From: Ruminococcus sp.
Lineage (GTDB): Bacteria > Bacillota > Clostridia > Oscillospirales > Acutalibacteraceae
DNA length: 64,000 bases
Assembly: GCA_017411385.1 (NCBI GenBank)
Contig: JAFQQF010000003.1
Coordinates: 62,001 to 126,000 of the forward strand
Direction: 5' to 3'
Below are positions 11,213 through 51,353 of this stretch, one piece after another. Every line of letters starts with the position of its first letter. The stretch's first letter is position 1. Both the position numbers and the translations under genes were made by a program. Below the pieces are notes generated by a model that was not told the DNA's origin, made no database searches, and was given only the letters and a program-made list of their open reading frames with translations.

Positions 11213-11218
11213 AATTCA

Positions 11219-11239: not shown

Positions 11240-11288
11240 GATATGCTATAAAGCAATAAATAATGATATATTATTCTCTAGAAAGGAG

Positions 11289-12664: not shown

Positions 12665-12706
12665 ACCGCAACCTCAGATGAATACTGAAGTTGCGGTTGT
12701 TTTTTG
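12665..12706 (+). terminator. Rho-independent terminator
   Basis: ACCGCAAC (12665-12672) pairs with GTTGCGGT (12690-12697), with additional CTCAG/CTGA pairing inside, followed by a run of T residues. It probably ends integrase transcription. Confidence 0.8.
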
Positions 12707-12734
12707 CCTTGGTAAGTCCTGCTGAAAAAGAAAA

Positions 12735-12762
12735 AAGCTATCAACCGAAGTTGATAGCTTTT
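12735..12762 (-). terminator. Terminator of the tRNA-Leu gene
   Basis: Read on the minus strand, AAAAGCTATCAAC and GTTGATAGCTTTT form a stem with a 4-base loop, followed by T residues. It lies immediately downstream of the tRNA 3' end. Confidence 0.8.
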
Positions 12763-12846
12763 GGTGCGAGTGACGGGACTTGAACCCGTACGCGTTGCCA
12801 CACACGCCCCTCAAACGTGCCTGTCTGCCTATTCCAGCACACTCGC
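12762..12846 (-). tRNA. tRNA-Leu (anticodon GAG), likely integration site
   Basis: Minus strand, 85 bases. The 7-bp acceptor stem is GCGAGTG/CACTCGC, the D arm has CTG/CAG, and the anticodon stem CACGT/GCGTG encloses the loop TTGAGGG with anticodon GAG, reading CTC and CTT codons. A long variable arm (GTGTGGCAACGC) marks a class II tRNA, and GGGTTCAAGTCCC is the T arm. The CCA end is encoded. The 3' end points toward the integrase, the usual arrangement for tyrosine-recombinase elements. Confidence 0.95.
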
Positions 12847-35561: not shown

Positions 35562-36196
35562 TTGCGTTTCCTCACCTGTTCTTCAAGACCCTGACGTATA
35601 GCCAGAATCTCTGCATTCTTGAATTTGTAGCCTGACTTGTTTGCGATGAGTCTGGCACTTATTGGAACAATAGTGTCCACAACCTCCAAGTCATTTTCCT
35701 TGAGTGTTGTTCCTGTTTCTACAATGTCAACTATTACATCGGAAAGACCGAGGATGGGTGCAATCTCGATGGAGCCGTTGAGCTTGATAATGTCGATGTC
35801 ACGGCATTTTTCGTTGTAGAAGGTTTCTGCAATGTTGGGGAACTTTGTTGCAACTCTGAGCGTTCTGCCTTTTGGGTCGCGGAAATCCTTTTTAGCGGCC
35901 ACTGCCATACGGCATTTGCCCATATCCATATCAAGTAGCTCGTACACATCCGGTTCGTATTCAAGGAGAATATCCTTGCCTGCAACTCCGATGTCAGCGG
36001 CACCTCTTTCAACATAAATTGCTACGTCAGAGGGTTTAACCCAGAAGTAGCGCACACCCTTTTCGGGGTTTTCAAAAATCAGCTTGCGGTTTGTTTCCTC
36101 AATGGAGGGACATTCAAAGCCTGCTTCCTTGAAGTAGTTGTAAACCTTTTCTCCCAGTCTGCCCTTGGGCAGAGCAACATTAACCATTGTCTTCAA
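35558..36196 (-). CDS. hisG: ATP phosphoribosyltransferase, short form
   Basis: 212 residues, the short HisG lacking the C-terminal His-binding domain, so it needs HisZ. 'VNVALPKGRLGEKVYNYF' at the N-terminus, 'AAKKDFRDPKG' and 'DVIVDIVETGTTLKENDLE' (PRPP-binding) are visible. A TTG start at 36196 has AAAGGAGGG nine bases upstream; the ATG three codons later is too far from that site. It overlaps the 3' end of hisZ. Confidence 0.94.
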   Translation of the reverse strand: MKTMVNVALPKGRLGEKVYNYFKEAGFECPSIEETNRKLIFENPEKGVRYFWVKPSDVAIYVERGAADIGVAGKDILLEYEPDVYELLDMDMGKCRMAVAAKKDFRDPKGRTLRVATKFPNIAETFYNEKCRDIDIIKLNGSIEIAPILGLSDVIVDIVETGTTLKENDLEVVDTIVPISARLIANKSGYKFKNAEILAIRQGLEEQVRKRK

Positions 36197-37301
36197 GTGT
36201 CAGTCCCTCCTTTGTAAGCTTCATAACCTTTCGGCAGCTTATGCTTTTTGGTTTCTTTGTGCACACAAGCACGGAGCCTTCCTTTGAAAGCTCATCCACA
36301 GCCTTCGTAAGCTCCAAAGGCGCTGTGTCCTCAGAATAAAGCAGTACTGTGTCTATGTCGTAATCATTTCCGTCAAAATCCAACTGCTCCAGAAGGTCAA
36401 GGTAAAGTGCAAAGCCAATGGCACCGCTTGTTCTTCCCATTTTTTTCAGAAGCTTGTCGTACTGACCGCCTGAGAGAATGCTTGTGGGGATACCCTGAAT
36501 GTAGCCCTTGAAAACCACACCCGAGTAGTATTTCATATCATTACCAACGGAGAAATCAAGGGTAACGTGTGAAGAATAACCGCTGTGCTCAATTATACTG
36601 CACAGAGTGCTCAGCTCTTCAAAAGCTTCTTTTTCTTTGTCTTTGTCAAGTAAGGGTGCAACTGCAGAAAGCACAGTTTTTACATCAGCACAGTTTTCAA
36701 CAAGGGCACAGAGCTTTTTTGTGTTGGCTTTGTCAACGCCTTCTTCTTTGCAAATGGCATAAAGCTCATGAGCGTTTTTCTGATGCAGACATGCGTGAGC
36801 CTTAGCCTTGCCGTCGTGAGAAAGTCCGCTGCTGTCTAAAATTGCGGCAACAAGTCCCATGTGGGAAATATCCAGCACATAGCTGTCTGAGATAAGTGCA
36901 AGGCTCTTTACAGCCAGAAGCACAACCTCAGCAATATCGTAGCTGTGCAAATCACCGATGCATTCAAGTCCTGCCTGCATAATTTCCTTGAAGCTGTGAG
37001 TGCCCTTGGAAACTCTGTAAACGTTTTCATTGTAGTAAACCTTCTGCACGGTGTTTTTCTTATCTATGGAATTCTTGATGATAGAAAGGGTAACGTCGGG
37101 CTTAAGTGCCATAAGTCTGCCGTTTCTGTCTGTAAAGGTGATAACCTCGTCGGATACAAGGAAGTCCTTGTTTTTTACGTAAAGGTCGTATTCTTCAAAG
37201 CGACTCATCTTAAACTGTGAGTAGCCGTATTTGCTGTAAAGACTTCTGAGGGTGAAGATTGCACGCTCGTCGTTCTTTATGATTCTTTCGTTACTGAGCA
37301 T
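36180..37301 (-). CDS. hisZ: ATP phosphoribosyltransferase regulatory subunit
   Basis: 373 residues, a HisRS-like protein without tRNA-ligase function that joins HisG in a hetero-octamer and senses histidine. Class II synthetase-like motifs: 'KYGYSQFKMSRFEEYDLY', 'RLMALKPDVTLSIIK' (motif 2-like with Arg), 'YYNENVYRV', 'QAGLECIG', and 'YYSGVVFKGYI' with 'ILSGGQYDKL'. The presence of HisZ explains the short HisG. Confidence 0.92.
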   Translation of the reverse strand: MLSNERIIKNDERAIFTLRSLYSKYGYSQFKMSRFEEYDLYVKNKDFLVSDEVITFTDRNGRLMALKPDVTLSIIKNSIDKKNTVQKVYYNENVYRVSKGTHSFKEIMQAGLECIGDLHSYDIAEVVLLAVKSLALISDSYVLDISHMGLVAAILDSSGLSHDGKAKAHACLHQKNAHELYAICKEEGVDKANTKKLCALVENCADVKTVLSAVAPLLDKDKEKEAFEELSTLCSIIEHSGYSSHVTLDFSVGNDMKYYSGVVFKGYIQGIPTSILSGGQYDKLLKKMGRTSGAIGFALYLDLLEQLDFDGNDYDIDTVLLYSEDTAPLELTKAVDELSKEGSVLVCTKKPKSISCRKVMKLTKEGLTLEDNG

Positions 37302-37599
37302 CGGGGATGTTTCCTTTCAATTTAAGTCTTTCAATAGCTGTGCGGTAGCCGCCCGAGCCGTAGTTAAGACATTTGTTTACTCTGCAGATTGTTGCTGTGC
37401 TGACACTTGTTTTTGTGTTGACCTCTTGATAATTCTGACCAGCATGAAGGAGTCTTGCAACCTGAAATCTCTGGGCGATTTCCTTAATCTCCTTAATGGT
37501 GCAGGCATCCTCAAAGAACATATAGCACTCATCAATGTTTTGAAGCGAGAGTATAGCCTCAAAGAGAGCGTCAATCTCAGGACTCTGGAACTTACTCAT
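37291..37599 (-). CDS. yerC: YerC/TrpR-family repressor, probable histidine operon regulator
   Basis: 102 residues, ATG after AAAGGAATG. All-helical TrpR-like protein; the helix-turn-helix is 'RFQVARLLHAGQNYQEVNTKTSVSTATICRVNKCLNYG' in outline, and it starts 'MSKFQSPEIDALFEAILSLQ' as in YerC/YecD proteins. Comparative studies assign this family (also called HisR) to his gene control in Firmicutes. It is the first gene of the his operon and overlaps hisZ by 11 bases. The dyad at 37632-37656 just upstream is its likely operator, giving autoregulation. Confidence 0.85.
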   Translation of the reverse strand: MSKFQSPEIDALFEAILSLQNIDECYMFFEDACTIKEIKEIAQRFQVARLLHAGQNYQEVNTKTSVSTATICRVNKCLNYGSGGYRTAIERLKLKGNIPDAQ

Positions 37600-38718: not shown

Positions 38719-38736
38719 TTGTTAAAAATTTGACAA
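38719..38736 (+). promoter_or_regulatory. Rex operator upstream of the succinate operon
   Basis: TTGTTAA-AAAT-TTGACAA, 18 bases, differs from the Rex consensus TTGTTAA-N4-TTAACAA at one position. Rex is the NADH/NAD+ sensing repressor of fermentation genes in Gram-positive bacteria. The site lies 17 bases upstream of the -35 of the mdh promoter. The rex gene itself is not in the window. Confidence 0.7.
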
Positions 38737-38752
38737 AATACACTTACTTCTA

Positions 38753-38781
38753 TTGCACCGCACAGTATATTATGTTATAAT
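38753..38781 (+). promoter_or_regulatory. Promoter of the mdh-fum-hdr-flx-frd operon
   Basis: TTGCAC (38753-38758), 17-base spacer, consensus TATAAT (38776-38781). The leader of about 100 bases contains two hairpins: GGTAGGT (38798-38804) / ACCTGCC (38809-38815), and TAAGGG (38829-38834) / CCCTTA (38842-38847). Confidence 0.8.
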
Positions 38782-38887
38782 AATCACAATTACGAATGGT
38801 AGGTAAAGACCTGCCTGAGGATGAAAATTAAGGGGAGATATCCCTTATCGGACAGTAAAATAATCCAAATTATAAAGGAGAACAATT

Positions 38888-39832
38888 ATGAACAAGATTA
38901 CAGTTATCGGAGCAGGTAATGTAGGAGCAACCCTTGCATACACATTTACAGTAGCAGGTCTTTGCTCAGAAATAGTCCTCATCGATATAAACCACGAGCG
39001 TGCATTGGGTGAGGCTCTTGATATCCGTCAGGGTACACCCTTCTGTCATTCCTGCTCGGTTTATGCGGGTAGCTATCAGGATGCGGCAGGCTCTGATATT
39101 GTAGTTCTCACATCTGGTGTGGGCAGAGCTCCCGGTCAGTCAAGACTTGACCTTGCACAGACAAACATCGAGATTACCAAGAGCATTATTCCCGAGATTA
39201 CACGCTATGCTCCCGATGCAATCTATGTTATCGTAAGCAACCCCGTTGACGTGCTCACATATGCTTTCTGCAAAGCATCCGGTCTTCCTCAGGAGAGAGT
39301 AATCGGTTCAGGTACAATCCTCGATACTTCCAGACTCAGAGCAAGACTTTCCGAGTATTATTTCCTCAATCAGCGTAACGTTCACGCTTATGTTCTGGGT
39401 GAGCACGGCAACTCCAGCTTTGTTCCTTGGTCTTTGTGTAATATTTCAAATGTTCCCATTGAGGAATACCGCAAGAGTGTTCAGCGTACAGACGTTGTTT
39501 ATCCCGAGCTCAACTACGATGAGGTTGAGGACTATGTTAAGAAATCTGGCGGAGAGGTTATCAGCCGCAAGGGTGCAACCTTCTATGCTGTTTCTGTTTC
39601 TGTGTGCCACCTGTGCAGATGCATCTTAAGCGGTGTTGATACAACTCTGACAGTTTCCACAATGCTCAATGGTGAGTATGGTATCAGCGACGTTTGCTTA
39701 AGCCTTCTCAACGTTGTAGGCAATAACGGTGCACACAGTAAGGTTCTTCTGCCACTCACTGACGATGAGGTGCTGAAGCTTCGTGCAAGTGCAGATACAT
39801 TAAAGGAAGTAATCAAAAGCGTTAATATTTGA
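38888..39832 (+). CDS. mdh: LDH-family dehydrogenase, probable malate dehydrogenase
   Basis: 314 residues, ATG 38888 after AAAGGAG. NAD-dependent 2-hydroxyacid dehydrogenase: '[14 protein letters not shown]', Asp after strand 2 ('[10 protein letters not shown]') for NAD+, 'SNPVDVLTY', '[15 protein letters not shown]' and the catalytic His in 'LGEHGNSS'. Overall it is closest to bacterial L-lactate dehydrogenases. But in the substrate-specificity loop '[14 protein letters not shown]', Arg 80 stands where LDH has Gln (position 102 in classical numbering); Arg there selects oxaloacetate over pyruvate. With fumarase next in the operon, malate dehydrogenase activity (oxaloacetate to malate, consuming NADH) is the better call. 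Lactate dehydrogenase is the alternative. Confidence 0.75.
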
Positions 39833-39873
39833 TAGTTAAGATTAATAAAGAAATAACGAAGGGACGGATACAA

Positions 39874-41250
39874 ATGGAATATCGTATAGAACATGACTCA
39901 ATGGGCGAGGTTAAGGTGCCTGCAGACAAGCTTTGGGCAGCACAGACTCAGCGTTCAAGCCAGAATTTTCCCATTGGTGTAGGAATAGAAACAATGCCCC
40001 GTGAGATTACTCACGCTTTCGGTATACTCAAAAAAGCCGCAGCCATTGCAAACGCACAATTGAAACCCGAGAAGATGACAGAAGCAAAGCTTTCTGCCAT
40101 TACACAGGCTTGTGACGAGGTAATAGAGGGCAAGCTAAACGAAAACTTCCCCTTGGTTGTGTGGCAGACAGGCTCGGGCACACAGTCCAATATGAATGTC
40201 AACGAGGTAGTGGCAAACCGCGGAAACCTTATTGCAGGCGAAAAGCTCCTCCATCCCAACGACGACATCAATATGAGCCAGTCCTCCAACGATACATTCC
40301 CCACAGCGATGCACATTGCTGCTGTGTTTATGATTGAAGACAAGCTTATTCCTGCCGCAGAAACTCTCATTAAGACATTTATCCGTCTTGAAGAGGAAAA
40401 TGAAGGCATCGTTAAGAGCGGTCGTACACATCTTCAGGATGCAACTCCCATTAAATTCAGTCAGGAGATAAGCGGATGGCGTTCAAGCCTTGAGCGTGAC
40501 GTTGAGATGCTCCGTCTTGCTGTAAAGCCCCTTTACGAGCTTGCTCTGGGCGGTACAGCAGTAGGTACAGGTCTTAACACCCCCAAGGGCTTTGCAGAGC
40601 TTGTAGCTCAGACTGTGGCTGATTTGACAGGTAAGCCCTTTATCACAGCTTCCAATAAGTTCCACGCACTTACCTCCAAGGATGAGCTTGTATTTGCACA
40701 TGGCGCAATTAAGGCTCTTGCCTGCGATATGATGAAGATTGCAAACGATGTTCGCTGGCTTGCAAGCGGTCCCCGTGACGGTCTTGGTGAGATTTTTATT
40801 CCCGAGAACGAGCCCGGCTCCTCAATTATGCCCGGTAAGGTTAACCCCACTCAGTGTGAGGCGGTAACCATGGTTGCTGTTCAGGTTATGGGCAACGACG
40901 TAGCTGTAGGTATGGCGGCTTCTCAGGGTAACTTTGAGCTTAACGTTTTTATGCCCGTATGTATCTACAATTTTCTCCAGTCAGGCAGACTCCTTTCTGA
41001 GGCAATTGTTTCCTTTAACAACAACTGTGCAGTAGGCATCACCGCTAACCGCGAGAAAATGCACCACAACCTGCACAATTCTCTTATGCTGGTTACTGCC
41101 CTCAATCCCTATATCGGATACGAGAATGCAGCAAAAACAGCAAAAAAAGCATATAAAGACAACATCTCTCTCAAAGAAGCTTGTGTTGAGCTTGGCTTCC
41201 TTACAGCTGAGAGATTTGACGAGGTATTCCATCCCGAAGAGATGGTATAA
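39874..41250 (+). CDS. fumC: Fumarate hydratase, class II
   Basis: 458 residues from ATG 39874; an upstream in-frame GTG lies at the mdh stop. Interconverts malate and fumarate. Family motifs: '[17 protein letters not shown]', '[18 protein letters not shown]', '[13 protein letters not shown]' (catalytic His), '[12 protein letters not shown]' and the signature '[16 protein letters not shown]' with the catalytic Ser loop. This class is oxygen-stable and iron-free. Here it links mdh with the downstream fumarate reductase-like gene in the reductive direction. Confidence 0.95.
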
Positions 41251-41262
41251 GGAGTGTATACA

Positions 41263-42057
41263 ATGAAGGTAAGTTATTTTCCCGGATGTACCCTCAAAAC
41301 CAAGGCTAAAGACCTTGATATGTACGCTCACAAGTGTGCAGAGGCTTTGGGTGTAAGTCTGGAAGAAATAGACAACTGGCAGTGTTGCGGTGGTGTGTTC
41401 AATACCGCAAGGAACGAGGTTGCCAATAAGCTTTCCTCTGTCCGTGCTTTGAAATTTGCAAAGTCTAAGGAACAGCCTTTGGTATCTGTTTGCTCTGCCT
41501 GTCACAATGTATTGAAGCAGACAAACCATGCAATGCAGACAGACTCTGCTTTTGCAAGCAAGGTTAACCTCTATATGGCGGAGGAAACCAACTACGACGG
41601 AAGCACAGAGGTTTACCACTATCTTGAGATGCTTCGCGATTTGGTAGGCTTTGATGCAATAAAAGAAAAGGTTGTTAACCCCTTAAAGGGCAAAAGAATA
41701 GCTGCATATTACGGATGCCTCCTACTCAGACCCAATTCAGTAATGCAGATGGACGACCCTGAGAATCCTCAGATTTTCGAGGATTTAATCCGTGCGTTGG
41801 GGGCAGAGCCTGTAATCTATGCAATGCGTAACGAGTGTTGCGGCGGTTACGTTACAATGGAAAACCCCGAGTTTGCGTCTAAAAAGAGCAAGGCTATCAC
41901 AGATAACGCATCTTCCTTCGGTGCAGATATGATTGTAACAGCCTGTCCTCTTTGTAAATATAACCTTGAGAAAAACGGCAATTCCATTCCTGTTGTATAC
42001 TTCACAGAGCTTCTGGCAGAGGCTCTCGGCGTAAAGGAGGATGCTCAGAATGCATAA
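41263..42057 (+). CDS. hdrB: HdrB-like heterodisulfide reductase subunit (CCG domains)
   Basis: 264 residues from ATG 41263, eight bases after AAGGAG; the GTG at 41254 overlaps that site. Two cysteine-rich CCG domains: 'FPGCTL' with 'NWQCCGGVF' and 'CSACHNVL', then 'YYGCLLLR' with 'NECCGGYV' and 'CPLCKYNL'. In methanogens these bind two noncubane [4Fe-4S] clusters that cleave the CoM-S-S-CoB disulfide. Bacteria lack those thiols, so the acceptor must differ. It is the first of eight redox genes in the operon. Confidence 0.9.
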   Translation: MKVSYFPGCTLKTKAKDLDMYAHKCAEALGVSLEEIDNWQCCGGVFNTARNEVANKLSSVRALKFAKSKEQPLVSVCSACHNVLKQTNHAMQTDSAFASKVNLYMAEETNYDGSTEVYHYLEMLRDLVGFDAIKEKVVNPLKGKRIAAYYGCLLLRPNSVMQMDDPENPQIFEDLIRALGAEPVIYAMRNECCGGYVTMENPEFASKKSKAITDNASSFGADMIVTACPLCKYNLEKNGNSIPVVYFTELLAEALGVKEDAQNA

Positions 42058-42442
42058 GGATAACACAAAGCTTACAGAAGAGATAATCCGCGCAAGCGGT
42101 GTGAATCCAAAGAAATGTATGAAGTGCGGTAAGTGTTCGGCTACCTGTCCTGCTTATGATGAGATGGAGTATCATCCCCATCAGTTTGTATATATGGTAG
42201 AGTCAGGAGATATTGAGCCTCTGATGAATTCAAAGTCACTTTATATGTGCCTGAGCTGTTTTGCTTGTATAGACAGATGCCCCCGCGGTGTTGAGCCTGC
42301 AAAGCTTGTAGAAGCAGTAAGACTTTCTGTAATCCGTCAGCAGGGCAAGAATCATATGACAGCAGACGATGTTCCTGCAAAGCTTTCAGAGGACCTTCCT
42401 CAGCAGGCAATCGTCAGCGCATTCAGAAAATACACTAAGTAA
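42050..42442 (+). CDS. hdrC: HdrC-like iron-sulfur subunit
   Basis: 130 residues from ATG 42050, seven bases after AAGGAGG and overlapping hdrB by eight bases. Two [4Fe-4S] motifs: 'CMKCGKCSATCP' and 'CLSCFACIDRCPRGVEP'. It relays electrons between HdrA and HdrB. Length matches bacterial HdrC. Confidence 0.9.
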   Translation: MHKDNTKLTEEIIRASGVNPKKCMKCGKCSATCPAYDEMEYHPHQFVYMVESGDIEPLMNSKSLYMCLSCFACIDRCPRGVEPAKLVEAVRLSVIRQQGKNHMTADDVPAKLSEDLPQQAIVSAFRKYTK

Positions 42443-42455
42443 GGAGGAAAATACA

Positions 42456-44450
42456 ATGCAGAGAATTGGCGTATTCGTATGCTGGTGCGGAAGCAACATT
42501 GCTGGTACAGTTGATGTTCACGCAGTAGCAGAGGCTCTCAAAAACGAGCCCGGTGTTGTTTTTTCCACCGACTATCAGTATATGTGCTCTCAGGCAGGAC
42601 AGGACATAATCAAGAACGCTGTAAAGGAGCATAACCTTACAGGCATCGTTGTCTGTTCCTGTTCACCCCGTATGCACGAGGCTACATTCCGCAAGACAGC
42701 GGCAGCCGCTGGTCTTAACCCTTATATGGTTGAGATTGCCAATATCCGTGAGCAGTGCTCTTGGGTACATAAGAATATGCAGACAGGCACAGAAAAGGCA
42801 ATCATCCTCGGTAAAGCAGCTGTTGCTAAGGTTAATCTCAACACACCCCTTACTCCCGGTGAGTCCCCTGTAACAAAACGTGCTCTGGTTATCGGCGGTG
42901 GTATCGCAGGTATCCAGACTGCTCTTGATATTGCCGATGCAGGCTTCCCTGTAGACATTGTAGAAGCAAAGCCTACAATCGGCGGTAAGATGGCTCAGCT
43001 TGACAAAACTTTCCCAACCCTTGACTGTGCCGCTTGTATCCTCACGCCTAAGATGGTTGACGTTGCTCAGAATGAGAACATCCGCATCTTCTCCTACAGC
43101 GAAGTACAGGAGATTAAAGGCTTCGTTGGTAATTTTGACGTTACTATCAAGAAGAAGGCACGCTTTGTCAAGGAAGAAATCTGCACAGGCTGTGGTGCTT
43201 GCGTAGAAAAATGTCCTATGAAGAAAATCCCCAACGAGTTTAATCTTGGTATGGACAACCGCCGCGCAATTTACATTCCTTTTGCACAGGCTGTTCCCAA
43301 GGTTGCTACCATCGACCCCAATGCTTGTAATATGCTGAAAAACGGCAAATGCGGTGTGTGCTCCAAGGTTTGTACCGCAGGTGCTATTGACTATACACAG
43401 AAGGACGAGATTATCTCGGAAAAATACGGTGCGGTTGTAGTTGCAACAGGCTTCAATCCTATCAGTATGGATAAGTTTGACGAGTTTGCATACAACCAGT
43501 CTAAGGATGTTATCACATCTCTTGAGTTTGAGCGTCTGACAAATGCCGCAGGCCCTACTGCCGGCAAGCTTCTCCGTCCTTCTGATTTAGAGCATCCTCA
43601 CACTATCGTCTTTGTTCAGTGCGTTGGTTCCCGTTGTGCCGCTTGTGCTGAAAAAGGCAAGGAGTATTGCTCCAAAATTTGCTGTATGTATACAGCAAAG
43701 CACGCAATGCTTGTTCGTGATAAATACCCCGACACAGAGGTTTATGTGTTCTACATTGACGTTCGTACCCCCGGCAAGAACTTTGACGAGTTCTACCGCC
43801 GTGCAGTAGAGGAATACGGTGTTAAATATATAAAGGGAATGGTAGGCAAGGTTACTCCCGAGGGTAACAAGCTCAAGGTTCAGGCTTCTGACCTTATCGC
43901 TAACAAACAGCTTCACATTGATGCTGATTTGGTTGTTCTTGCCGCCGCTATCGAGCCTGATAAGTCAGCACGTTCGCTTGCCACAATGCTTACAGCAAGT
44001 ATGGATACCAACGACTTCTTCACCGAGGCTCATCCAAAGCTTCGACCCGTAGAAAGCCCCACAGCTGGCGTGTTCCTTTCCGGTGCTTGTCAGGGACCTA
44101 AAGATATTCCCGAAACCGTATCACAGGCTTCTGCCGCTGCTTCCAAGGTTATCGGACTGCTTTGCAAGGATAAGCTCACAGGCAACCCCTGTATTGCAAG
44201 TGCAAATGAGCTTATGTGTAACGGTTGCTCAACTTGTGCAAATGTATGCCCCTATGGTGCAATTACTTATGAAGATAAAGAATTTATGATGCCCGACAGA
44301 ACCAAGGCTCTTCGCCGTGTTGCACAGGTTAACCCTGCAGTTTGTCAGGGTTGCGGTGCTTGTACCGTTGCTTGTATGTCAGGTGCTATGGATTTACGTG
44401 GATTTATGGGCTCACAGATTATTGCGGAGGTGGATGCAATATGCAAGTAA
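42456..44450 (+). CDS. hdrA: HdrA-like FAD and iron-sulfur subunit (candidate bifurcation site)
   Basis: 664 residues from ATG 42456 after AAGGAGG; the longer frame to 42369 overlaps hdrC. The N-terminal domain has 'CWCGSNIAGTVD' and 'VVCSCSPRMHEATFRK'. An FAD-binding domain follows with 'VIGGGIAGIQTALDIADAGF' (about residues 147-166) and 'GGKMAQLDKTFPTLDCAACILTPKM'. A first ferredoxin-type motif is 'CTGCGACVEKCP', with a further Cys group around 'CGVCSKVC'. The C-terminal ferredoxin domain has 'CNGCSTCANVCP' and 'CQGCGACTVACM'. In methanogens HdrA's FAD bifurcates electrons to ferredoxin and the disulfide. Full length, so bifurcation is plausible here. Confidence 0.92.
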   Translation: MQRIGVFVCWCGSNIAGTVDVHAVAEALKNEPGVVFSTDYQYMCSQAGQDIIKNAVKEHNLTGIVVCSCSPRMHEATFRKTAAAAGLNPYMVEIANIREQCSWVHKNMQTGTEKAIILGKAAVAKVNLNTPLTPGESPVTKRALVIGGGIAGIQTALDIADAGFPVDIVEAKPTIGGKMAQLDKTFPTLDCAACILTPKMVDVAQNENIRIFSYSEVQEIKGFVGNFDVTIKKKARFVKEEICTGCGACVEKCPMKKIPNEFNLGMDNRRAIYIPFAQAVPKVATIDPNACNMLKNGKCGVCSKVCTAGAIDYTQKDEIISEKYGAVVVATGFNPISMDKFDEFAYNQSKDVITSLEFERLTNAAGPTAGKLLRPSDLEHPHTIVFVQCVGSRCAACAEKGKEYCSKICCMYTAKHAMLVRDKYPDTEVYVFYIDVRTPGKNFDEFYRRAVEEYGVKYIKGMVGKVTPEGNKLKVQASDLIANKQLHIDADLVVLAAAIEPDKSARSLATMLTASMDTNDFFTEAHPKLRPVESPTAGVFLSGACQGPKDIPETVSQASAAASKVIGLLCKDKLTGNPCIASANELMCNGCSTCANVCPYGAITYEDKEFMMPDRTKALRRVAQVNPAVCQGCGACTVACMSGAMDLRGFMGSQIIAEVDAICK

Positions 44451-44875
44451 ACGAATATAAGCCCTTGATTGTGGCATTCTGCTGTAACTGGTGTTCCTAT
44501 GCAGGCGCAGACCTTGCAGGTAATAACAGACTCAATTACCCTGCAGATGTTAAGATTATCCGCGTTCCTTGTTCCTGCCGTGTTAATCCTATGTTTATCC
44601 TGCGTGCATTTCAGCGTGGTGCAGACGGCGTAATCATTTGCGGTTGTCATCCCGGCGACTGCCACTATACATCAGGTAACTATTACACCAGACGTCGTAT
44701 GGCTCTGTTGTTCTCAATGCTTGACTACCTGGGTATCGAGCGTGAGCGTACCCGTCTTGAGTGGGTATCCGCTGCAGAGGGTGCAAAGTTTGCTGCTACT
44801 ATGAATGATTTTGCTGAGAAGGTTGCAGCTCTCGGCGAAAACAAGAGATTGGAGGATCTGCGATGCAAAAAATAA
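44441..44875 (+). CDS. flxD: MvhD/FlxD-like [2Fe-2S] electron transfer subunit
   Basis: 144 residues from ATG 44441, after GCGGAGGTGG, overlapping hdrA by ten bases. The five conserved Cys of the methyl-viologen-reducing hydrogenase delta family are present: 'FCCNWCSYAGAD', 'VPCSCRVNP', 'GCHPGDCHY'. In hydrogenase-Hdr complexes this subunit passes electrons from the electron input module to HdrA. Here the input module is the NAD-binding protein encoded downstream, as in FlxABCD-HdrABC. It overlaps the next gene by 13 bases. Confidence 0.88.
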   Translation: MQVNEYKPLIVAFCCNWCSYAGADLAGNNRLNYPADVKIIRVPCSCRVNPMFILRAFQRGADGVIICGCHPGDCHYTSGNYYTRRRMALLFSMLDYLGIERERTRLEWVSAAEGAKFAATMNDFAEKVAALGENKRLEDLRCKK

Positions 44876-45858
44876 CACGTGACACACTTGTGAGCAAAGC
44901 GGTTTCTCTGCTTGAAAACGGCACTGTTGACGCAGTCCTCGGCTGGGGCAAGGGTGAGTTTGCTTATGACGTAACTCCAACAGTCTTTGAAACTGCCGAC
45001 GAAATCCGCGAAAACTTTGTTTGGAACGATTTTTGCGGTGCCAACTTCTCCAAGTACTTAGTATCAAAAACAAGAAAACTCGAGGGTAAAATACTTGTGT
45101 TCCTCAAGCCCTGCGATACTTACAGCTTTAACCAGCTTCTCACAGAGCATCGTTTTGACAGAGAAAAAGTTTACGTTGTTGGTGTTCCCTGCGAGGGAAT
45201 GGCTGACATTTCTAAGGTTAAGGCAATTACAGGCGACGGTATCTCTGCTATTGATTTTACCGATAACGGTCTTGTTATTACAACTCTTTATGATGATGAG
45301 CCCAAGACCGTAGCATATGAAGATATTCTTGCCGAGCGCTGTGTAAACTGCAAGAGCAAGAAGCACGTTGCATACGATGAGCTTTTGGGCGAAACAGGCG
45401 AGGTTCTTGAATCAGCCCGTTTTGACGAGGTGGCAAAGATTGAAGCACTTACTCCCGATGAGCGTTTTGCTTTCTGGCAGGGTGAGCTTTCACGCTGTAT
45501 CCGTTGCAACGCTTGCCGTGACGTATGTCCTGCATGCACCTGCGAAAAGTGTGTGTTTGATAATCCCAACTCAGGAGCTGAGAACAAAGCTCCTGCAAAC
45601 TCATTTGAGGAGCAGATGTTCCACATTATCCGCGCATTCCACGTAGCAGGCAGATGTACTGACTGCGGTGAGTGCTCCAGAGTTTGTCCTCAGAACATTC
45701 CTCTGCATCTTCTCAACCGTAAGTTTATCCGCGATATTGATAACTTCTACGGTGAGTATCAGGCAGGTGCCGAGGTAGGCACACGTGCACCCCTAGTAGA
45801 TTACAACCTCGACGATTTAGAGGCTTCCGATGTGTTTGAGAGGAGGGACTCTGAGTAA
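44863..45858 (+). CDS. Iron-sulfur protein of the Flx module (FlxC-like)
   Basis: 331 residues from ATG 44863. The N-terminal 150 residues carry a domain with 'LVFLKPCDTYSFNQLLTE' and 'VVGVPCEGM', similar to the F420 hydrogenase beta-type family. A Cys group 'CVNCKSKKH' follows, then two [4Fe-4S] motifs, 'CIRCNACRDVCPACTCEKC' and 'CTDCGECSRVCP'. Proteins of this layout accompany HdrABC and an NADH-oxidising subunit in anaerobic bacteria. Role: electron relay in the cytoplasm. The assignment to FlxC rather than FlxB is by position and length only. Its stop overlaps the next start by one base. Confidence 0.75.
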   Translation: MQKITRDTLVSKAVSLLENGTVDAVLGWGKGEFAYDVTPTVFETADEIRENFVWNDFCGANFSKYLVSKTRKLEGKILVFLKPCDTYSFNQLLTEHRFDREKVYVVGVPCEGMADISKVKAITGDGISAIDFTDNGLVITTLYDDEPKTVAYEDILAERCVNCKSKKHVAYDELLGETGEVLESARFDEVAKIEALTPDERFAFWQGELSRCIRCNACRDVCPACTCEKCVFDNPNSGAENKAPANSFEEQMFHIIRAFHVAGRCTDCGECSRVCPQNIPLHLLNRKFIRDIDNFYGEYQAGAEVGTRAPLVDYNLDDLEASDVFERRDSE

Positions 45859-46883
45859 TGCGTAAATGTTCTTTAAGCGTTCTTCCTGCTCTTTTTGCAG
45901 AGATTGCAAAATCTAATACTCTCTATATCCCTGCTTCTGACAATGCAGGGGGAGCTAAATTTACAAAGTGGGAGGAAGGTATTCAGTACCTTGACACTCT
46001 CAATACAGTAAAAAGCCCCAAGGATTTCTTCTTTCCTCATACCGAGGATTTGATGGAGTTCAAGGTTACAGGCAAGAATATTGAGCTTTTCGATATCAGA
46101 GAAGAGTCCGAGGATTTTGTTGTTTTCGGTGTTCGTGCTTGTGATGTTAAGAGCTTTGATATTTTAGACAGAGTTTTCCTTTCCGACCCTGTGGACAGCT
46201 ACTATGCATCACGCCGTGAGCACGGTGTGATTATCTCCCTTGCCTGCACACGACCTGCTGAAACCTGTTTCTGCACAACCTTCGGCATTGACCCTGCAAC
46301 ACCTGCAGGCGATATTTCCGCTTGGAAGACAGAGGATGCACTTTACCTACAGGCAAACACACAGAAGGGTGAGGCACTCCTTTCAAGTGTTGAGGCTTTA
46401 ACCGAAGAATGTGACTCAACCGATGTAGAAGCACAGCAGGAGAAAACACGCAAGATTATGCAGAAGCTTCCGCTTGCTAATCTTACAACCGACTCTTTTG
46501 GCGGCGGTAAGACTCTGGAGCTTTTCGACTCACCCAAGTGGGATGAACTTTCAGAAGCTTGTCTTGGTTGCGGTACCTGTACCTTTGTTTGTCCCACCTG
46601 TCAGTGCTACGATATAAAGGATTTCAACACAGGAAACGGTGTAATTCGTTACCGTTGCTGGGACTCCTGTATGTTTTCTGAGTTTACAAAGATGGCACAC
46701 GGCAACTCACGTCTTACTCAGCTTGAGCGTTTCCGTCAGAGATTTATGCACAAGCTTGTGTATTATCCCGAGAATAACGACGGACTCTTTAGCTGTGTAG
46801 GCTGCGGCAGATGCCTTTCTAAGTGTCCCATCTCTATGAATATTGTAAAAGTAATGAAAGCTTTAGGAGGGGAGAAGAAATGA
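45858..46883 (+). CDS. Iron-sulfur protein of the Flx module (FlxB / AsrA / HydB-like)
   Basis: 341 residues from ATG 45858. N-terminal region with 'FFFPHTEDLMEF' and 'FGVRACDVKSFDILDRVF', C-terminal [4Fe-4S] dicluster with 'CLGCGTCTFVCPTCQCYD' and 'CVGCGRCLSKCPISMNI'. These are the marks of the beta subunit of sulfhydrogenases and of anaerobic sulfite reductase subunit A. Such subunits partner with the FAD/NAD-binding gamma subunit encoded next, with which it shares a four-base ATGA overlap. Probably electron relay from NADH toward HdrA. Confidence 0.8.
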   Translation: MRKCSLSVLPALFAEIAKSNTLYIPASDNAGGAKFTKWEEGIQYLDTLNTVKSPKDFFFPHTEDLMEFKVTGKNIELFDIREESEDFVVFGVRACDVKSFDILDRVFLSDPVDSYYASRREHGVIISLACTRPAETCFCTTFGIDPATPAGDISAWKTEDALYLQANTQKGEALLSSVEALTEECDSTDVEAQQEKTRKIMQKLPLANLTTDSFGGGKTLELFDSPKWDELSEACLGCGTCTFVCPTCQCYDIKDFNTGNGVIRYRCWDSCMFSEFTKMAHGNSRLTQLERFRQRFMHKLVYYPENNDGLFSCVGCGRCLSKCPISMNIVKVMKALGGEKK

Positions 46884-47713
46884 ATACAAGAGAAGAAACC
46901 CTGATTCCCGTTGTGGGTGTGATTACCGATGTACGCATTGACACTCCCGACGTAAAGACTTTCCGCGTTGTAACTCCCGATGGCAAAAAGGCTTTTGAGC
47001 ATAAGCCCGGTCAGTGTGCAATGCTTTCAATCCCCGGTGTAGGCGAGGCAATGTTCTCCATTACATCTTCTCCTACAAACACCGAGTTTATGGAGTTTTC
47101 CATTAAGAAGTGCGGTTGTGTAACCGATTGGCTCCATCAGGCAGAGGTTGGTCAGCAGCTCACAATCCGCGGACCTTATGGCAGACCTTTTCCTGTAGAT
47201 ACTGAGTTTAAGGGCAAGGATTTGCTCTTTATCGCAGGCGGTATCGGTCTTGCACCTCTTCGTTCAGTAATTAACTATTGCCGTCACTACCGTGATGAAT
47301 ACGGCAAGATTGATATTGTTTACGGCTCACGCAGTATGGATGACCTTGTGGATTACAAGGAAATTGTAGAGGAGTGGACAAAGGACAAAAACGTAGATGT
47401 TCACCTGACAATCGACCGTGAGCAGGAAGGCTGGGACGGACACGTTGGCTTTGTTCCCAATTACGTTAAGGAGCTTGGGTTTGATACCAACAAGACCGCT
47501 ATTATCTGCGGACCTCCCATTATGATTAAGTTTACTCTGCAGGCGATGGTTGAGCTTGGCTTCAATAAGGAGCAGGTTTATACCACAATGGAGCTTCGAA
47601 TGAAGTGCGGTGTAGGCAAGTGCGGCAGATGTAACATCGGCTCCAAGTATGTGTGCAAAGACGGTCCCGTGTTCCGTTGTGATGAGCTGGACGAACTGCC
47701 CGACGAGTATTGA
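46880..47713 (+). CDS. flxA: FAD/NAD(P)-binding subunit (FlxA / AsrB / HydG-like)
   Basis: 278 residues from ATG 46880 after AGGAGGGGAG. A ferredoxin-NADP+ reductase-type fold: FAD domain with 'KPGQCAMLSI' and 'AMFSITSSP', 'TIRGPYGRPFP', then the nucleotide domain with 'LLFIAGGIGLAPLRSVI', 'YGSRSMDDLVDYKE', 'AIICGPPIMIKFT'. The C-terminus binds a [2Fe-2S] cluster through 'MKCGVGKCGRCNIG' plus a later Cys ('YVCKDGPVF'), as in PyrK and AsrB. It is the likely NADH entry point of the complex. Confidence 0.88.
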   Translation: MNTREETLIPVVGVITDVRIDTPDVKTFRVVTPDGKKAFEHKPGQCAMLSIPGVGEAMFSITSSPTNTEFMEFSIKKCGCVTDWLHQAEVGQQLTIRGPYGRPFPVDTEFKGKDLLFIAGGIGLAPLRSVINYCRHYRDEYGKIDIVYGSRSMDDLVDYKEIVEEWTKDKNVDVHLTIDREQEGWDGHVGFVPNYVKELGFDTNKTAIICGPPIMIKFTLQAMVELGFNKEQVYTTMELRMKCGVGKCGRCNIGSKYVCKDGPVFRCDELDELPDEY

Positions 47714-47727
47714 TAGGAGGTAACAAC

Positions 47728-48402
47728 ATGGAAAATATGGTAAACGTTTTTCTGTTCGGAAAGAAATATCAGGTTCCCGATAACCTAACCATTATGCGTG
47801 CTATGGAGTACGCAGGCTACGAGCTTGTACGCGGTTGCGGTTGCAGAAACGGCTTCTGCGGTGCCTGTGCCACTATTTACAGAATTGCTGGTGACAGAGA
47901 GCTTAAGGCTTGCCTTGCTTGTCAGACAAAGGTAGAAGACAATATGTATGTTGCAACTTTGCCCTTCTTCCCTTTGGTAAAGCAGGTTTATGATATTGAA
48001 ACAGTAAATACCACAGAGCAGGTTATGATGCAGCTCTATCCGGAGATTTACGCTTGTGTAGGCTGTAACGCCTGTACTAAGGCTTGCACTCAGGGACTCA
48101 ACGTTATGCAGTACATAGCATACGCTCAGCGCGGTGATTTCGAGGCTTGTGCCGAGGAGTCCTTCGATTGTGTAATGTGCGGTGTTTGCTCATCCCGTTG
48201 CCCTGCAGGCATCTCTCATCCTCAGGTTGCAATGCTTGCAAGACGCATCAACGGTAAGTACTTGGCTCCCAAATGTGGCCACCTTGAAGACAGAGTTCAG
48301 GAAATCAAAGACGGCACTTTCACAGAGCTTATTGAGGCTTTAATGCAAAAGCCTGTTGAGGAAATGAAAGAGCTTTACAATACACGTGAGATTGAGAAAT
48401 AA
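47728..48402 (+). CDS. Iron-sulfur subunit with [2Fe-2S] and two [4Fe-4S] motifs (fumarate reductase B-like)
   Basis: 224 residues from ATG 47728, after AGGAGG. N-terminal ferredoxin fold with the [2Fe-2S] pattern 'GCGCRNGFCGAC' and a later 'ACLACQT', then 'CVGCNACTKACTQGL' and 'CVMCGVCSSRCPAGI'. Compared with classical SdhB/FrdB it has the same order of clusters, but the last site is a full four-Cys motif rather than a [3Fe-4S] motif, and no membrane-anchor genes follow. It lies 14 bases before the flavoprotein and probably connects it to the Hdr/Flx proteins. Confidence 0.78.
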   Translation: MENMVNVFLFGKKYQVPDNLTIMRAMEYAGYELVRGCGCRNGFCGACATIYRIAGDRELKACLACQTKVEDNMYVATLPFFPLVKQVYDIETVNTTEQVMMQLYPEIYACVGCNACTKACTQGLNVMQYIAYAQRGDFEACAEESFDCVMCGVCSSRCPAGISHPQVAMLARRINGKYLAPKCGHLEDRVQEIKDGTFTELIEALMQKPVEEMKELYNTREIEK

Positions 48403-48416
48403 GGAGGGCAAGGCTA

Positions 48417-50012
48417 ATGTATGCAGAACAGTTTCAGAAATCTTTAAAAGCTGTAGAAGAGGCAAGAGAAGCTAACATTGCCCTCGAACCAAAGCGTATG
48501 ACAGCACAGCAGAAGGAAGACCTTCTGGCAGAATTTCACCCTGATTACAGAAAAGATGAGTTCACAGAGCTCAAAATAGGTCCTAATAAGGGTGATAAGG
48601 TTCCTCACGAGCTTGCCGAAACCCTGCAGGCACACGCAAGAATCAGCGCAGAGGATGTAAACCTTGAAAACCCTCAGTATGATGTTGACGTGCTTATCAT
48701 CGGCGGCGGCGGTGCAGGTGCATCAGCCGCAATCGAAGCAAGTGATGCAGGTGCAAACGTTATGATTGTCACAAAGCTTCGCATAGGCGATGCCAACACA
48801 ATGATGGCAGAGGGCGGTATTCAGGCGGCAGACAAGCCCAACGATTCCCCTGCAATCCACTTTGTTGATGCTTTTGGCGGCGGTCACTTTGCCGCAAAGC
48901 GTGAGCTTCTCAGAAAGCTTGTATGCGATGCTCCCGAGGCTATAAAGTGGCTCAATGAGCTTGGTGTTGAGTTTGATAAGGATGCAGAGGGTAATATGAT
49001 TACCACTCATGGCGGCGGCACATCCAGAAAACGTATGCATGCCGCAAAGGATTACTCAGGCGCTGAGATTATGCGTACGCTTCGCGACGAGGTTCTTAAC
49101 CGTCAGATTCCCGTTGTTGATTTTACTGCAGCTGTGGAGCTTATCCTTGATGAAAACGGCAAGTGCGCAGGCGCAGTACTTATGAATATGGAAACCAAGG
49201 AGCTTATGGTAGCTCGTGCCAAGACTGTCATCATCGCAACAGGCGGTGCAGGCAGAATGCACTATCAGGGTTTCCCCACATCTAACCACTACGGAGCAAC
49301 CGCAGACGGTCTTGTGCTTGGTTACCGAGTAGGTGCAAAGCTTCTTTATGCAGAAACTCTTCAGTATCATCCTACAGGGGCTGCTTTCCCTGAGCAGATT
49401 TTCGGAGCGTTAGTTACCGAGAAGGTTCGTTCTCTTGGTGCAAAGCTAGTAAATGCAAATGGTGAAGTATTTATGCATCCTCTCGAAACCCGCGACGTTG
49501 CGGCAGCTTCCATTATCCGCGAGTGTAACGCACGCTCAAACGGTATAGAAACAGGTTCAGGTCTTGGCGTGTGGCTTGATACTCCTATGATTGAAAAAAT
49601 CGGCGGCGAGGGTACTATTATGAAGAGAATCCCCGCTATGTGGAGAATGTTCGATAAGTATGGTATTGATATCCGTAAGGAGCCCATTCTTGTTTATCCC
49701 ACACTTCATTATCAGAACGGCGGACTTGATATTAAGGAAGACGGCGAAACAACAAACATCGAGAACCTTTTCGTTGCAGGTGAGGCAGTTGGCGGTATCC
49801 ACGGCAGAAACCGTCTTATGGGTAACTCTCTCCTCGATATAATTGTATTCGGCAGAAGTGCAGGTAAAAATGCAGCTCAGAAAGCTAAGAATACACAAGT
49901 TGGAACTATGACACTTTCCCACATTGCTAAGTTTGAGCAGGAGATTGAGGATGCAGGTATCGTAACAGATACAGTATCTCCCAAGCTTCTCCCAAGTTAT
50001 GCAAGAAAGTAA
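48417..50012 (+). CDS. frdA: Soluble fumarate reductase / succinate dehydrogenase-like flavoprotein
   Basis: 531 residues from ATG 48417. After an 80-residue N-terminal extension, the FAD-binding fold starts at 'VLIIGGGGAGASAAIEA' (about residues 92-108). Catalytic residues of the fumarate reductase family are all in place: His in 'YHPTG', Arg in 'ETRDVAAASI', His in 'YPTLHYQNGG', and Arg in 'HGRNRLMGNSLLD'. 'HGGGTSRKRMHA' sits at the flavin. The C-terminus is shorter than in quinone-linked enzymes and no membrane anchor is encoded. It most likely reduces fumarate to succinate in the cytoplasm with electrons from the co-encoded iron-sulfur proteins. Another enoate or an aspartate oxidase-type reaction is less likely given fumC and mdh in the operon. 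Confidence 0.85.
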   Translation: MYAEQFQKSLKAVEEAREANIALEPKRMTAQQKEDLLAEFHPDYRKDEFTELKIGPNKGDKVPHELAETLQAHARISAEDVNLENPQYDVDVLIIGGGGAGASAAIEASDAGANVMIVTKLRIGDANTMMAEGGIQAADKPNDSPAIHFVDAFGGGHFAAKRELLRKLVCDAPEAIKWLNELGVEFDKDAEGNMITTHGGGTSRKRMHAAKDYSGAEIMRTLRDEVLNRQIPVVDFTAAVELILDENGKCAGAVLMNMETKELMVARAKTVIIATGGAGRMHYQGFPTSNHYGATADGLVLGYRVGAKLLYAETLQYHPTGAAFPEQIFGALVTEKVRSLGAKLVNANGEVFMHPLETRDVAAASIIRECNARSNGIETGSGLGVWLDTPMIEKIGGEGTIMKRIPAMWRMFDKYGIDIRKEPILVYPTLHYQNGGLDIKEDGETTNIENLFVAGEAVGGIHGRNRLMGNSLLDIIVFGRSAGKNAAQKAKNTQVGTMTLSHIAKFEQEIEDAGIVTDTVSPKLLPSYARK

Positions 50013-50039
50013 GTTTTCGTAAGGAAGGGGTATAGAAAA

Positions 50040-51299
50040 ATGGAACTTTTTGGCGGTGTAATTCCCATTACGGGTGTTTCCTTCTTCCTGTTCTGCGTGT
50101 TTTCCATCCTTTTTGTTGGATACGCTTTGGGAAGAATTACAATCAAGGGTGTTTCCCTTGGTGATGCAGGAGTATTTATTATAGCATTGCTTTTTGGTGC
50201 ACTTTTTTGTTCACCTGTAGCAACAGATTTGTTCACAATTCAGCCGATTGAATTTGACAATAACTGGCTCAGTGTTATTGAGAGCTTCGGACTCATTCTG
50301 TTTGTAACAAGTGTCGGATTTATTGCCGGTCCTAAGTTCTTTGCTAATATGAAAAAGAACTTCAAATCCTATGTGCTCTTAGGTCTTATAATTATTCTTG
50401 CAGGCGGACTCAGTGCTCTTGGTTGTATTATGCTGGGTGAACACGTGATTGGTTACGGTGCTGACACAATCAAGGATATCGACGGCTTTGTTGCTATGAT
50501 TGTAGGTCTTTTATCCGGTTCGCTTACATCAACTCCTGCATTCTCTGCGGCAAAGGCGACTGTTGCTCCCGAGTACGAAAGCCTCGTGTCCGTTGGCCAC
50601 GGTATTGCATACATATTCGGTGTTGTCGGTGTTGTTCTCTTTGTTCAGCTTATTCCTAAGCTTTCAAAGGCAGATATGGAAGCAGAGCGTGCAAAGATTG
50701 CAGTTAAGCAGAACGAGTCAAAGACAAAAAAGGCTATGAAGCTTCTTCACCTCGACCATATGGGTGTTTGCGTGTTCTCACTTGCCGCAATCCTTGGCAC
50801 AGTGTTCGGAAAAATCAAGATTCCTATGAGCTCTCAGGGACTTGACGGCACTTGCTTCTCACTCACAACCACAGGCGGCTGCCTCCTTGTTTCTCTGATA
50901 CTCGGCCACTTTGGCAGAGTAGGTAAGGTTAGCCTTATGCCTCAGGAAAGTACGCTTAAGCTCTTCCGCGAGCTTGGTTTGGTACTCTTCCTTGTAGGTG
51001 CAGGTATCCCGGGCGGAGCCGACTTTGTTGCTAACTTTAACGGTATGTACTTTGTATACGGCATCATCATGACAATCATTCCTATGATTATCGGTTTCAT
51101 CTTTGCAAAGTATGTGCTCAAGCTTCCTTTGCTCAACAACTTAGGCTCAATCACAGGCGGTATGACATCTACTCCTGCACTTGGCACACTTATCTCTACA
51201 GCAGGCACAGAGGATGTAGCAGCAGCCTATGCGGCCACATATCCCATAGCCCTCATTGCAGTTGTACTGGTTTCCCAGTTCCTTGTGCTGATGTTCTGA
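50040..51299 (+). CDS. AspT/YidE-family membrane carrier, probable succinate or dicarboxylate exporter
   Basis: 419 residues from ATG 50040. About ten to eleven membrane helices in two similar halves; the repeated 'GLLSGSLTSTPAFSAA' and 'GSITGGMTSTPALGTL' are the paired G-S/T-TPA motifs of the AspT (aspartate:alanine exchanger) family. A cytoplasmic loop of about 45 residues lies in the middle; the TrkA-C domains of longer members are missing. An AspT-family member of Corynebacterium exports succinate. As the last gene of an operon whose enzymes make succinate, this carrier probably exports it or exchanges it for another dicarboxylate. Confidence 0.85.
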   Translation: MELFGGVIPITGVSFFLFCVFSILFVGYALGRITIKGVSLGDAGVFIIALLFGALFCSPVATDLFTIQPIEFDNNWLSVIESFGLILFVTSVGFIAGPKFFANMKKNFKSYVLLGLIIILAGGLSALGCIMLGEHVIGYGADTIKDIDGFVAMIVGLLSGSLTSTPAFSAAKATVAPEYESLVSVGHGIAYIFGVVGVVLFVQLIPKLSKADMEAERAKIAVKQNESKTKKAMKLLHLDHMGVCVFSLAAILGTVFGKIKIPMSSQGLDGTCFSLTTTGGCLLVSLILGHFGRVGKVSLMPQESTLKLFRELGLVLFLVGAGIPGGADFVANFNGMYFVYGIIMTIIPMIIGFIFAKYVLKLPLLNNLGSITGGMTSTPALGTLISTAGTEDVAAAYAATYPIALIAVVLVSQFLVLMF

Positions 51300-51316
51300 T
51301 AAAAGCAAAAATATAA

Positions 51317-51353
51317 GCGACCTCATCGTTTTTTTGATGAGGTCGTTTTTTTT
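51317..51353 (+). terminator. Terminator of the succinate operon
   Basis: CGACCTCATC (51318-51327) / GATGAGGTCG (51336-51345) with a T-rich loop, followed by eight T residues. A clear end for the 12.4-kb transcript. Confidence 0.92.

Follow-up and report, generated by a model that had tools for sequence, protein, structure and literature searches.

The stretch of DNA described here, a window of 64,000 nucleotides (nt) from a Ruminococcus sp. contig (JAFQQF010000003.1), carries an operon in which genes of an Flx-Hdr electron transfer system stand together with genes of a fumarate reductase-like enzyme. Twelve genes form a single run on the plus strand between 38888 and 51299, with start codons chosen by us inside the listed open reading frames (ORFs). 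Their order was confirmed by the ORF list, Pfam and NCBIfam. A first-pass annotation, made from the sequence letters, had named these genes in this order and on this strand, and every one of them is present. As the intergenic gaps measure at most 41 nt and five gene junctions overlap, its description of the operon as gap-free is fair wording.

The first gene, mdh (38888..39832), belongs by Pfam and NCBIfam to the lactate/malate dehydrogenase (LDH/MDH) family and, with an Arg at the specificity position, to its malate dehydrogenase type. This residue, R80 of the window dehydrogenase, stands at the site which we take to separate malate from lactate dehydrogenases. Every one of the 43 homologues compared, each with 45% identity or more and at least 250 aligned residues, has Arg there. 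The Arg type claimed at first pass is thus borne out by alignment, whereas NCBIfam names the protein L-lactate dehydrogenase above its cut-off, contrary to the Arg reading. Despite that name, a plain lactate dehydrogenase was rejected because of the 43 conserved Arg residues. The second gene, fumC (39874..41250), encodes a class II fumarase (TIGR00979, 706.6 bits, cut-off 664.75).

The following seven genes make up the Flx-Hdr part. HdrB (41263..42057; Pfam, NCBIfam and alignment) matches PF02754 in two stretches, and both of its CCG motifs are unchanged in 17 of 17 sequences. By a narrow margin and below cut-off, its best NCBIfam match is SdhE of 8-methylmenaquinol:fumarate reductase (152.7 bits, cut-off 500), followed by HdrB itself (150.2 bits, cut-off 345.15); SdhE is a CCG protein. 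HdrC (42041..42442; Pfam, NCBIfam) has two [4Fe-4S] motifs. HdrA (42456..44450), the flavoprotein at which bifurcation would be expected, aligns over its full length with HdrA of the solved methanogen complex 5odc (5odc_A, E 1.4e-203). Against the NCBIfam model HdrA2 it scores 780.5 bits, below the cut-off of 1100, and the last part of this model is matched by the separate FlxD/MvhD-like protein (flxD, 44441..44875; PF02662, 187.6 bits, cut-off 22.3). Next come an flxC-like iron-sulfur protein (44863..45858; Fer4_8, name from position), an flxB-like iron-sulfur protein of AsrA/sulfhydrogenase beta type (45858..46883; PF17179, 103.5 bits; ShyB, 191.8 bits, below cut-off) and an flxA-like FAD/NAD-binding subunit (46880..47713; NAD_binding_1, FAD_binding_6 and DHODB_Fe-S_bind). 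Compared with an FlxABCD-HdrABC set, the operon therefore holds the MvhD/FlxD subunit, an HdrB with two CCG motifs, an HdrA with its FAD domain and ferredoxin-type inserts, the NAD/FAD-binding FlxA, and the iron-sulfur proteins FlxB and FlxC, both named by position.

Behind these genes lie frdB (47728..48402; Pfam, alignment) and frdA (48417..50012; NCBIfam, Pfam, alignments and predicted structure). FrdB carries one [2Fe-2S] and two four-Cys [4Fe-4S] motifs, whose 12 ligand Cys are unchanged in all 18 sequences compared, and the Pfam scan found no CCG domain (PF02754) in it. In the case of FrdA, residues H318, T334, E335, R338, H431 and R466, which we take to be catalytic, are equally unchanged in the 18 sequences, the window included. 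This His/Thr/Glu/Arg set aligns with that of E. coli SdhA, as in complex II, and upholds the first-pass statement that all catalytic residues are in place. At the site of the FAD-linking His stands Asn127, again in 18 of 18 sequences, and the FAD should therefore be bound without a covalent link; NadB and flavocytochrome c3 bind FAD in this way. An N-terminal extension of about 86 residues contains further invariant positions. The complex II C-terminal domain (Succ_DH_flav_C) was not listed for FrdA by Pfam at E up to 1e-6. On account of Asn127 and of this unmatched domain, a classical complex II was rejected. As noted at first pass, no membrane anchor is encoded within the operon, while a genome-wide search for one was not made.

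Among the NCBIfam models, FrdA scores best on TfrA (347.8 bits), without reaching the cut-off of 718. The cut-offs of 8-methylmenaquinol:fumarate reductase were also missed, by FrdA for SdhA (231.2 of 1100 bits), by FrdB for SdhB (20.6 of 600) and by HdrB for SdhE. The FAD-binding part is NadB-like, and the nadB model gives 275 bits, below its cut-off of 452.75. A separate NadB-like gene lies, by eye, between NadA-like and NadC-like ORFs elsewhere in the genome of the window; with this gene and the missed cut-off, NadB identity was rejected for FrdA. The AlphaFold model of FrdA has a predicted local distance difference test score (pLDDT) of 75.5, and its top solved structure is E. coli fumarate reductase (1kf6_A, TM-score 0.64 by query length). 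In this predicted structure the fold is confirmed as that of complex II and flavocytochrome c3.

The last gene (50040..51299) encodes a carrier of the AspT/SucE family (PF06826, 187.9 bits; TIGR01625, 134 bits, cut-off 71.95), so that the carrier placed at the operon end in the first-pass annotation holds good. Its family includes the succinate exporter SucE1, according to the available part of PMC9527358, and export of succinate is probably its role here. The operon is followed by an intrinsic-terminator-like hairpin of 14 pairs and a T run (51315..51348, plus strand). This is the longest stem in a hairpin scan that listed 12 sites in total, against 12.5 in shuffles.

To describe conservation, a nine-gene core was defined as hdrBCA, flxDCBA and frdBA. 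Of 295 genomes sampled from the order of the window, 56 have an FrdA orthologue and 54 have HdrA; the two are present together in 52 (Fisher P ~2e-50, a value that ignores shared ancestry). The FrdA orthologues are 64-87% identical to that of the window, itself left aside, and the next matches reach only 36-38%; 58 genomes had passed the FrdA threshold, and two such remote matches (G175, G087) were dropped uninspected. In 49 cases frdA and hdrA share a contig, always on the same strand and 3.9-4.2 kb apart, and three more pairs lie on different contigs. In the class outside the order, FrdA was found in 51 genomes (60-86% identity), all of which were scanned for HdrA: it lies near FrdA on the same strand in 44 and on another contig in six, and none was found in G364, a genome 75% complete with FrdA on an 11-kb contig. 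Here too 58 genomes had passed the threshold; three were dropped as belonging to the window's own order (G000, G050, G082) and four as remote (G319, G464, G562, G575; 37-38%). Two of these remote matches, G319 and G562, were inspected and are NadB above the nadB cut-off, beside NadA in one and NadC in the other.

Gene order was then compared in 80 named loci. They are the best of at least 590 relatives with a name, and so the nearest rather than a random choice. Core gene order is consistent in all 80, and the full core is found in 55 of the 56 having at least 8.5 kb upstream, the exception being L095. For these core counts and for the fumC and mdh spacings below, loci L060-L139 alone were used, as this set overlaps with L040-L059 (L040 is the same place as L095). 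In genome G553 the blocks are rearranged, with frdBA first and hdrBCA and flxCBA behind, and are still together. The locus of Ruminococcus flavefaciens FD-1 (L129) has fumC, the nine-gene core and the carrier, with no mdh within the stretch examined. Altogether, the nine-gene core is kept across genomes of many families, more than chance would give, and chance clustering was rejected by the co-occurrence counts. The question raised by the first-pass annotation, whether homologues of frdBA sit mainly apart from hdr and flx, is thereby answered in the negative.

The distribution of FrdA itself is patchy. In the order sample its nearest relatives (84-87%) belong to other families, within the window's own family it occurs at 71-79% in four members, and other listed members of that family, one of the same genus, are without it. 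Outside the order sample, the named locus L060 has an FrdA of 94% identity. This pattern suggests horizontal transfer or repeated loss. One operon lies on a contig labelled Treponema (L127, FrdA 77% identical to the window), from transfer or from a mis-binned contig.

The neighbouring genes bear on the substrate. Of the 55 complete named loci, 50 have fumC ahead of hdrB at a distance of 17-221 nt, and 37 have mdh ahead of fumC at 16-196 nt. In a wider set of 75 complete loci, which contains some repeats, FumC was found in 59, class I fumarase in 9 and both in none; the class I counts rest on models built from four of the counted loci, and Pfam confirms those four only. These four (L169, L170, L171, L172) have a class I fumarase pair without FumC. 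The two fumarase classes are not related to each other. In L171, additionally, a DASS-type carrier stands between frdA and the fumarase, where the window has its AspT-type carrier. Two further loci encode a GTP-dependent phosphoenolpyruvate carboxykinase (GTP-PEPCK) and then Rex behind frdA, downstream of the operon (L122, 11739-14288; L131, 11666-14166). Because swaps between unrelated enzymes of the same step would otherwise be hard to explain, fumarate as the substrate of FrdA is supported by this gene content.

The genome of the window contains GTP-PEPCK and, above cut-off, RnfC; no match was found in it for ATP-PEPCK. It also gave no match for a UbiA-family gene, with which 14 of 14 control genomes were positive. 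With a listed completeness of 93%, the genome may still contain such a gene, and UbiA stands in only indirectly for quinone synthesis.

Upstream of the operon, a Rex-type operator, TTGTTAAAAATTTGACAA (38719..38736, no strand assigned), agrees in 13 of 14 positions with a consensus for Clostridiaceae taken from the available parts of PMC8457756 and PMC9600882. When the 300 nt upstream were shuffled 5000 times, a score of 13 matches came up twice. The first base of this operator is exactly the start coordinate, 38719, of the first-pass annotation. About 40 nt downstream of the box, an extended -10-like element read by eye, TGTTATAAT (38773..38781, plus strand), is a possible operon promoter; it was not among the sites listed by the scan that gave the terminator-like hairpin. 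Strong sites (at least 12 of 14) were counted in 51 of the 80 named loci, namely those in which hdrB had been located and the upstream sequence reached 300 nt. They occur in 10 of these regions, compared with 0.49 expected from shuffles and with none in 135 control stretches, which were taken at fixed downstream offsets without regard to whether they were intergenic. The operon has a Rex gene nearby on its downstream side in L083, L094, L122 and L131 and on its upstream side in R. flavefaciens FD-1, and a Rex-type N-terminal domain is encoded elsewhere in the genome of the window. Control by Rex, which senses NADH/NAD+, is probable for the operon of the window and for that of some relatives.

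From the genes, residues, conservation, neighbours and operator-like site, all observed directly, we infer a complex with the electron path, bifurcation and stoichiometry set out here. In our favoured interpretation, which we hold to be rather probable on this comparative evidence, the operon would encode a soluble, NADH-driven, bifurcating Flx/Hdr-Frd route to succinate that is linked to Rnf and does without quinone. Its products would carry out the last steps of a cytoplasmic reductive succinate pathway, in which MDH would form malate and FumC fumarate. Hydride from NADH would enter at FlxA, and electrons would pass via FlxB, FlxC and FlxD to HdrA. The flavin of HdrA would split each pair, sending one electron to ferredoxin and the other via HdrC and HdrB to FrdB, which would hand it on to the FAD of FrdA for the reduction of fumarate. 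The net reaction would be 2 NADH + fumarate + oxidised ferredoxin -> 2 NAD+ + succinate + reduced ferredoxin. Rnf would convert the reduced ferredoxin into an ion gradient, and with this gradient a soluble enzyme would achieve without quinone what a membrane quinol:fumarate reductase does. By our own arithmetic, with NADH at -320 mV, ferredoxin (Fd) at -420 mV and fumarate at +33 mV, the summed reaction yields about -49 kJ/mol, so the coupling would be affordable. The potentials of NADH and ferredoxin were taken from PMC5861303.

The link between HdrB and FrdB can be described further by means of the methanogen TfrB model, which is covered in succession by FrdB (19-99, 39.6 bits), HdrC (132-220, 27.7 bits) and HdrB (262-487, 56.5 bits), each far below the cut-off of 385; FlxC is also a weak match to the middle part. 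These successive matches suggest that TfrB is split here, HdrB forming a section of the wire. HdrB, with both non-cubane cluster motifs, and FrdB, without CCG domain, would then be the two halves of TfrB, and given this resemblance HdrB more probably passes electrons straight to FrdB than reduces a free disulfide.

Several observations weigh against this interpretation. Two genomes of the window's family, each listed as 99% complete, have frdBA with an FrdA of 79% (G179, locus L040) and 71% identity (G286, L041), and in the latter fumC lies within the same stretch. In both genomes a search for HdrA at E up to 1e-100 came back empty, as did searches for HdrB and FlpD at E up to 0.001. FrdBA must therefore have another donor there, and consequently it is a module for which a fixed complex with Hdr and Flx is not obligatory. 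The first-pass proposal, that NADH feeds a soluble and quinone-free fumarate reductase via Hdr/Flx and that reduced ferredoxin may be gained, fits the comparative evidence, but FrdBA also occurs outside that context. The carrier gene alone is variable, an AspT-like gene having been found in 49 of 67 loci. Likewise, 7 of the 75 complete loci have no fumarase of either class, and 41 of the 51 upstream regions are without a strong Rex site, which is thus not universal. In loci L040-L139 and L169-L179, a search for Frd and Hdr parts fused in a single ORF found none. The AlphaFold model of FrdB is poor (pLDDT 62.2), and HdrB keeps both disulfide-cleaving motifs, so that a thiol pair is possible. 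From the literature, HdrABC homologues alone are no proof of bifurcation, and the ferredoxin-side acceptor of a related Moorella complex is listed as unknown (both in the available part of PMC5861303). One published result on Pseudoclostridium thermosuccinogenes speaks for the coupled route: an older study cited in PMC7282089 found succinate nearly abolished by H2, which the authors of PMC7282089 read as ferredoxin coupling. Lowering the redox potential with Na2S, however, had the opposite effect on succinate, according to the same paper.

Other genomes touch the same question. G202 and G253 have FrdA without an HdrA match, but their FrdA is partial at contig ends. G142 has HdrA on a 7.3-kb contig without an FrdA match, and G096 (L045) has a remote HdrA (47-49%) amid different genes. 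At this last locus, the HdrA/FlxD-like genes stand without frdBA beside ORFs that by eye resemble glycolate oxidase, glycine cleavage H protein and lipoate ligase.

The same proteins could also serve the same pathway without bifurcation, in that Flx and Hdr would simply wire NADH to FrdBA and the energy would be lost as heat. Gene content cannot distinguish this from the coupled route, and the warning of PMC5861303 on homologues applies here. We still regard it as unlikely, as HdrA keeps the full-length architecture of 5odc HdrA and as a plain NADH:fumarate reductase would need neither HdrA, HdrB and HdrC nor FlxD, yet 55 of 56 named loci retain all four. Less likely again is a thiol shuttle, in which HdrB would reduce a small disulfide, FrdBA would be a thiol:fumarate reductase and a diffusing thiol would link both. 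The invariant CCG motifs of HdrB and the TfrA match of FrdA speak for it. Opposed to this is the lack of a CCG domain in FrdB: in TfrB, thiol oxidation is ascribed to this domain, and FrdBA alone would have no thiol site. Moreover, a small-molecule shuttle does not require nine adjacent genes.

Bifurcating enzymes of this kind can be reversible, and with a carrier that could also serve uptake, the system might run as a confurcation in vivo, from succinate and ferredoxin to fumarate and NADH. We consider this very improbable: P. thermosuccinogenes and R. flavefaciens make succinate, and a reductive, NADH-consuming branch agrees with the Rex-type sites and with GTP-PEPCK, which the genome encodes and which in L122 and L131 follows the operon. 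That FrdA acts on another substrate, for example on aspartate as NadB does, is hardly to be expected, for although its FAD-binding part is NadB-like and the carrier family is named after AspT, it stays below the nadB cut-off in a genome with a separate NadB-like gene, a Glu of three aligned NadB-like sequences, which we presume to have a role in NadB, is Gly in FrdA, and two fumarase types and PEPCK are its neighbours in relatives.

Returning to the bifurcating route, a broader statement can be offered only tentatively. Quinone-free bifurcating fumarate respiration might be widespread in gut Oscillospiraceae-type Clostridia, R. flavefaciens included, and account for a good share of their succinate, with HdrB as the wire, TfrB split in two and an FrdBA that can be unplugged as in G179 and G286. 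If this were true, fermenters would gain energy from fumarate reduction without quinone or membrane enzyme, and the balances of ATP and H2 now ascribed to rumen and gut succinate producers would change. HdrABC would furthermore appear as a general bifurcating core for acceptor enzymes as varied as those for heterodisulfide, methylene-tetrahydrofolate and fumarate. With the operon present in the cultured R. flavefaciens FD-1, which is reported to form succinate (available part of PMC7174568), the proposal is directly testable.

Some other features were seen in the window. On the minus strand ahead of the operon, a YerC/YecD TrpR-related regulator (37291-37599) lies just upstream of an ORF that by eye resembles a HisZ-type regulatory subunit (36180-37301), with a run of minus-strand ORFs behind. 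A likely small integrated element at 6835-12846 encodes a DUF1643 protein, a D5_N/DUF5906 primase-like protein (8420-9838) and a tyrosine integrase (11190-12476), and adjoins tRNA-Leu(gag) at 12762-12846. Finally, a probable surface protein of 1754 amino acids, with collagen-like repeats and leucine-rich repeats of the BspA type, is encoded at 670-5934.

Compared with known systems, FrdA shares its flavoprotein active-site residues and fold with quinol:fumarate reductase and complex II, from which the operon differs by the missing anchor, Asn127, two four-Cys [4Fe-4S] motifs and the unmatched C-terminal domain. In the case of methanogen TfrAB, FrdA scores best on TfrA, whereas the TfrB model has the CCG part that the window FrdB is without. 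The FlxABCD-HdrABC of Desulfovibrio vulgaris, which Ramos in 2015 reportedly linked to ethanol metabolism, has the same seven subunit kinds as the window, where gene order links the set to frdBA instead. An earlier example of a CCG protein beside FrdAB is 8-methylmenaquinol:fumarate reductase, SdhABE (available part of PMC2680327), but HdrB, FrdB and FrdA of the window are far below the SdhE, SdhB and SdhA cut-offs, and the genome gave no UbiA-family match. In MetFV-HdrABC-MvhD of Moorella thermoacetica, the partner of HdrABC-MvhD is likewise an acceptor enzyme other than a disulfide reductase, with NADH as donor and methylene-tetrahydrofolate as acceptor, and no FlxABC is named in the excerpt of PMC5861303. 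In reverse tricarboxylic acid (rTCA) clusters of gammaproteobacteria, tfrAB is interspersed with flx-hdr, and a complex of flx-hdr with korABCD and tfrAB has been suggested in sulfur bacteria (PMC6315080, in part available); unlike the window, these clusters serve the reverse cycle and carry korABCD.

The closest system is the 'succinate operon' of P. thermosuccinogenes (CDQ83_RS03365-03315), for which the available part of PMC7282089 gives a fumarase, Flx-Hdr, a two-gene fumarate reductase and a putative transporter. The first-pass annotation knew of no described complex of this set, and this operon contradicts it. Judged from the published description, the order is the same as in the window, with seven Flx-Hdr locus tags as counted from their numbering, and the window adds mdh in front. 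GTP-PEPCK is part of the pathway there as well. Under CO2 limitation, the P. thermosuccinogenes operon rose about 4-fold, not significantly for every subunit, and the same bifurcation proposal has already been published for it (PMC7282089). A purification or assay of such a complex was not found in the open-access literature, most subscription journals being outside the search. With this precedent, the operon of the window is another member of an already proposed kind. What is added here to the available account in PMC7282089 is the breadth in gut Clostridia including R. flavefaciens FD-1, the swaps of fumarase and carrier, the link to Rex and the stand-alone frdBA.

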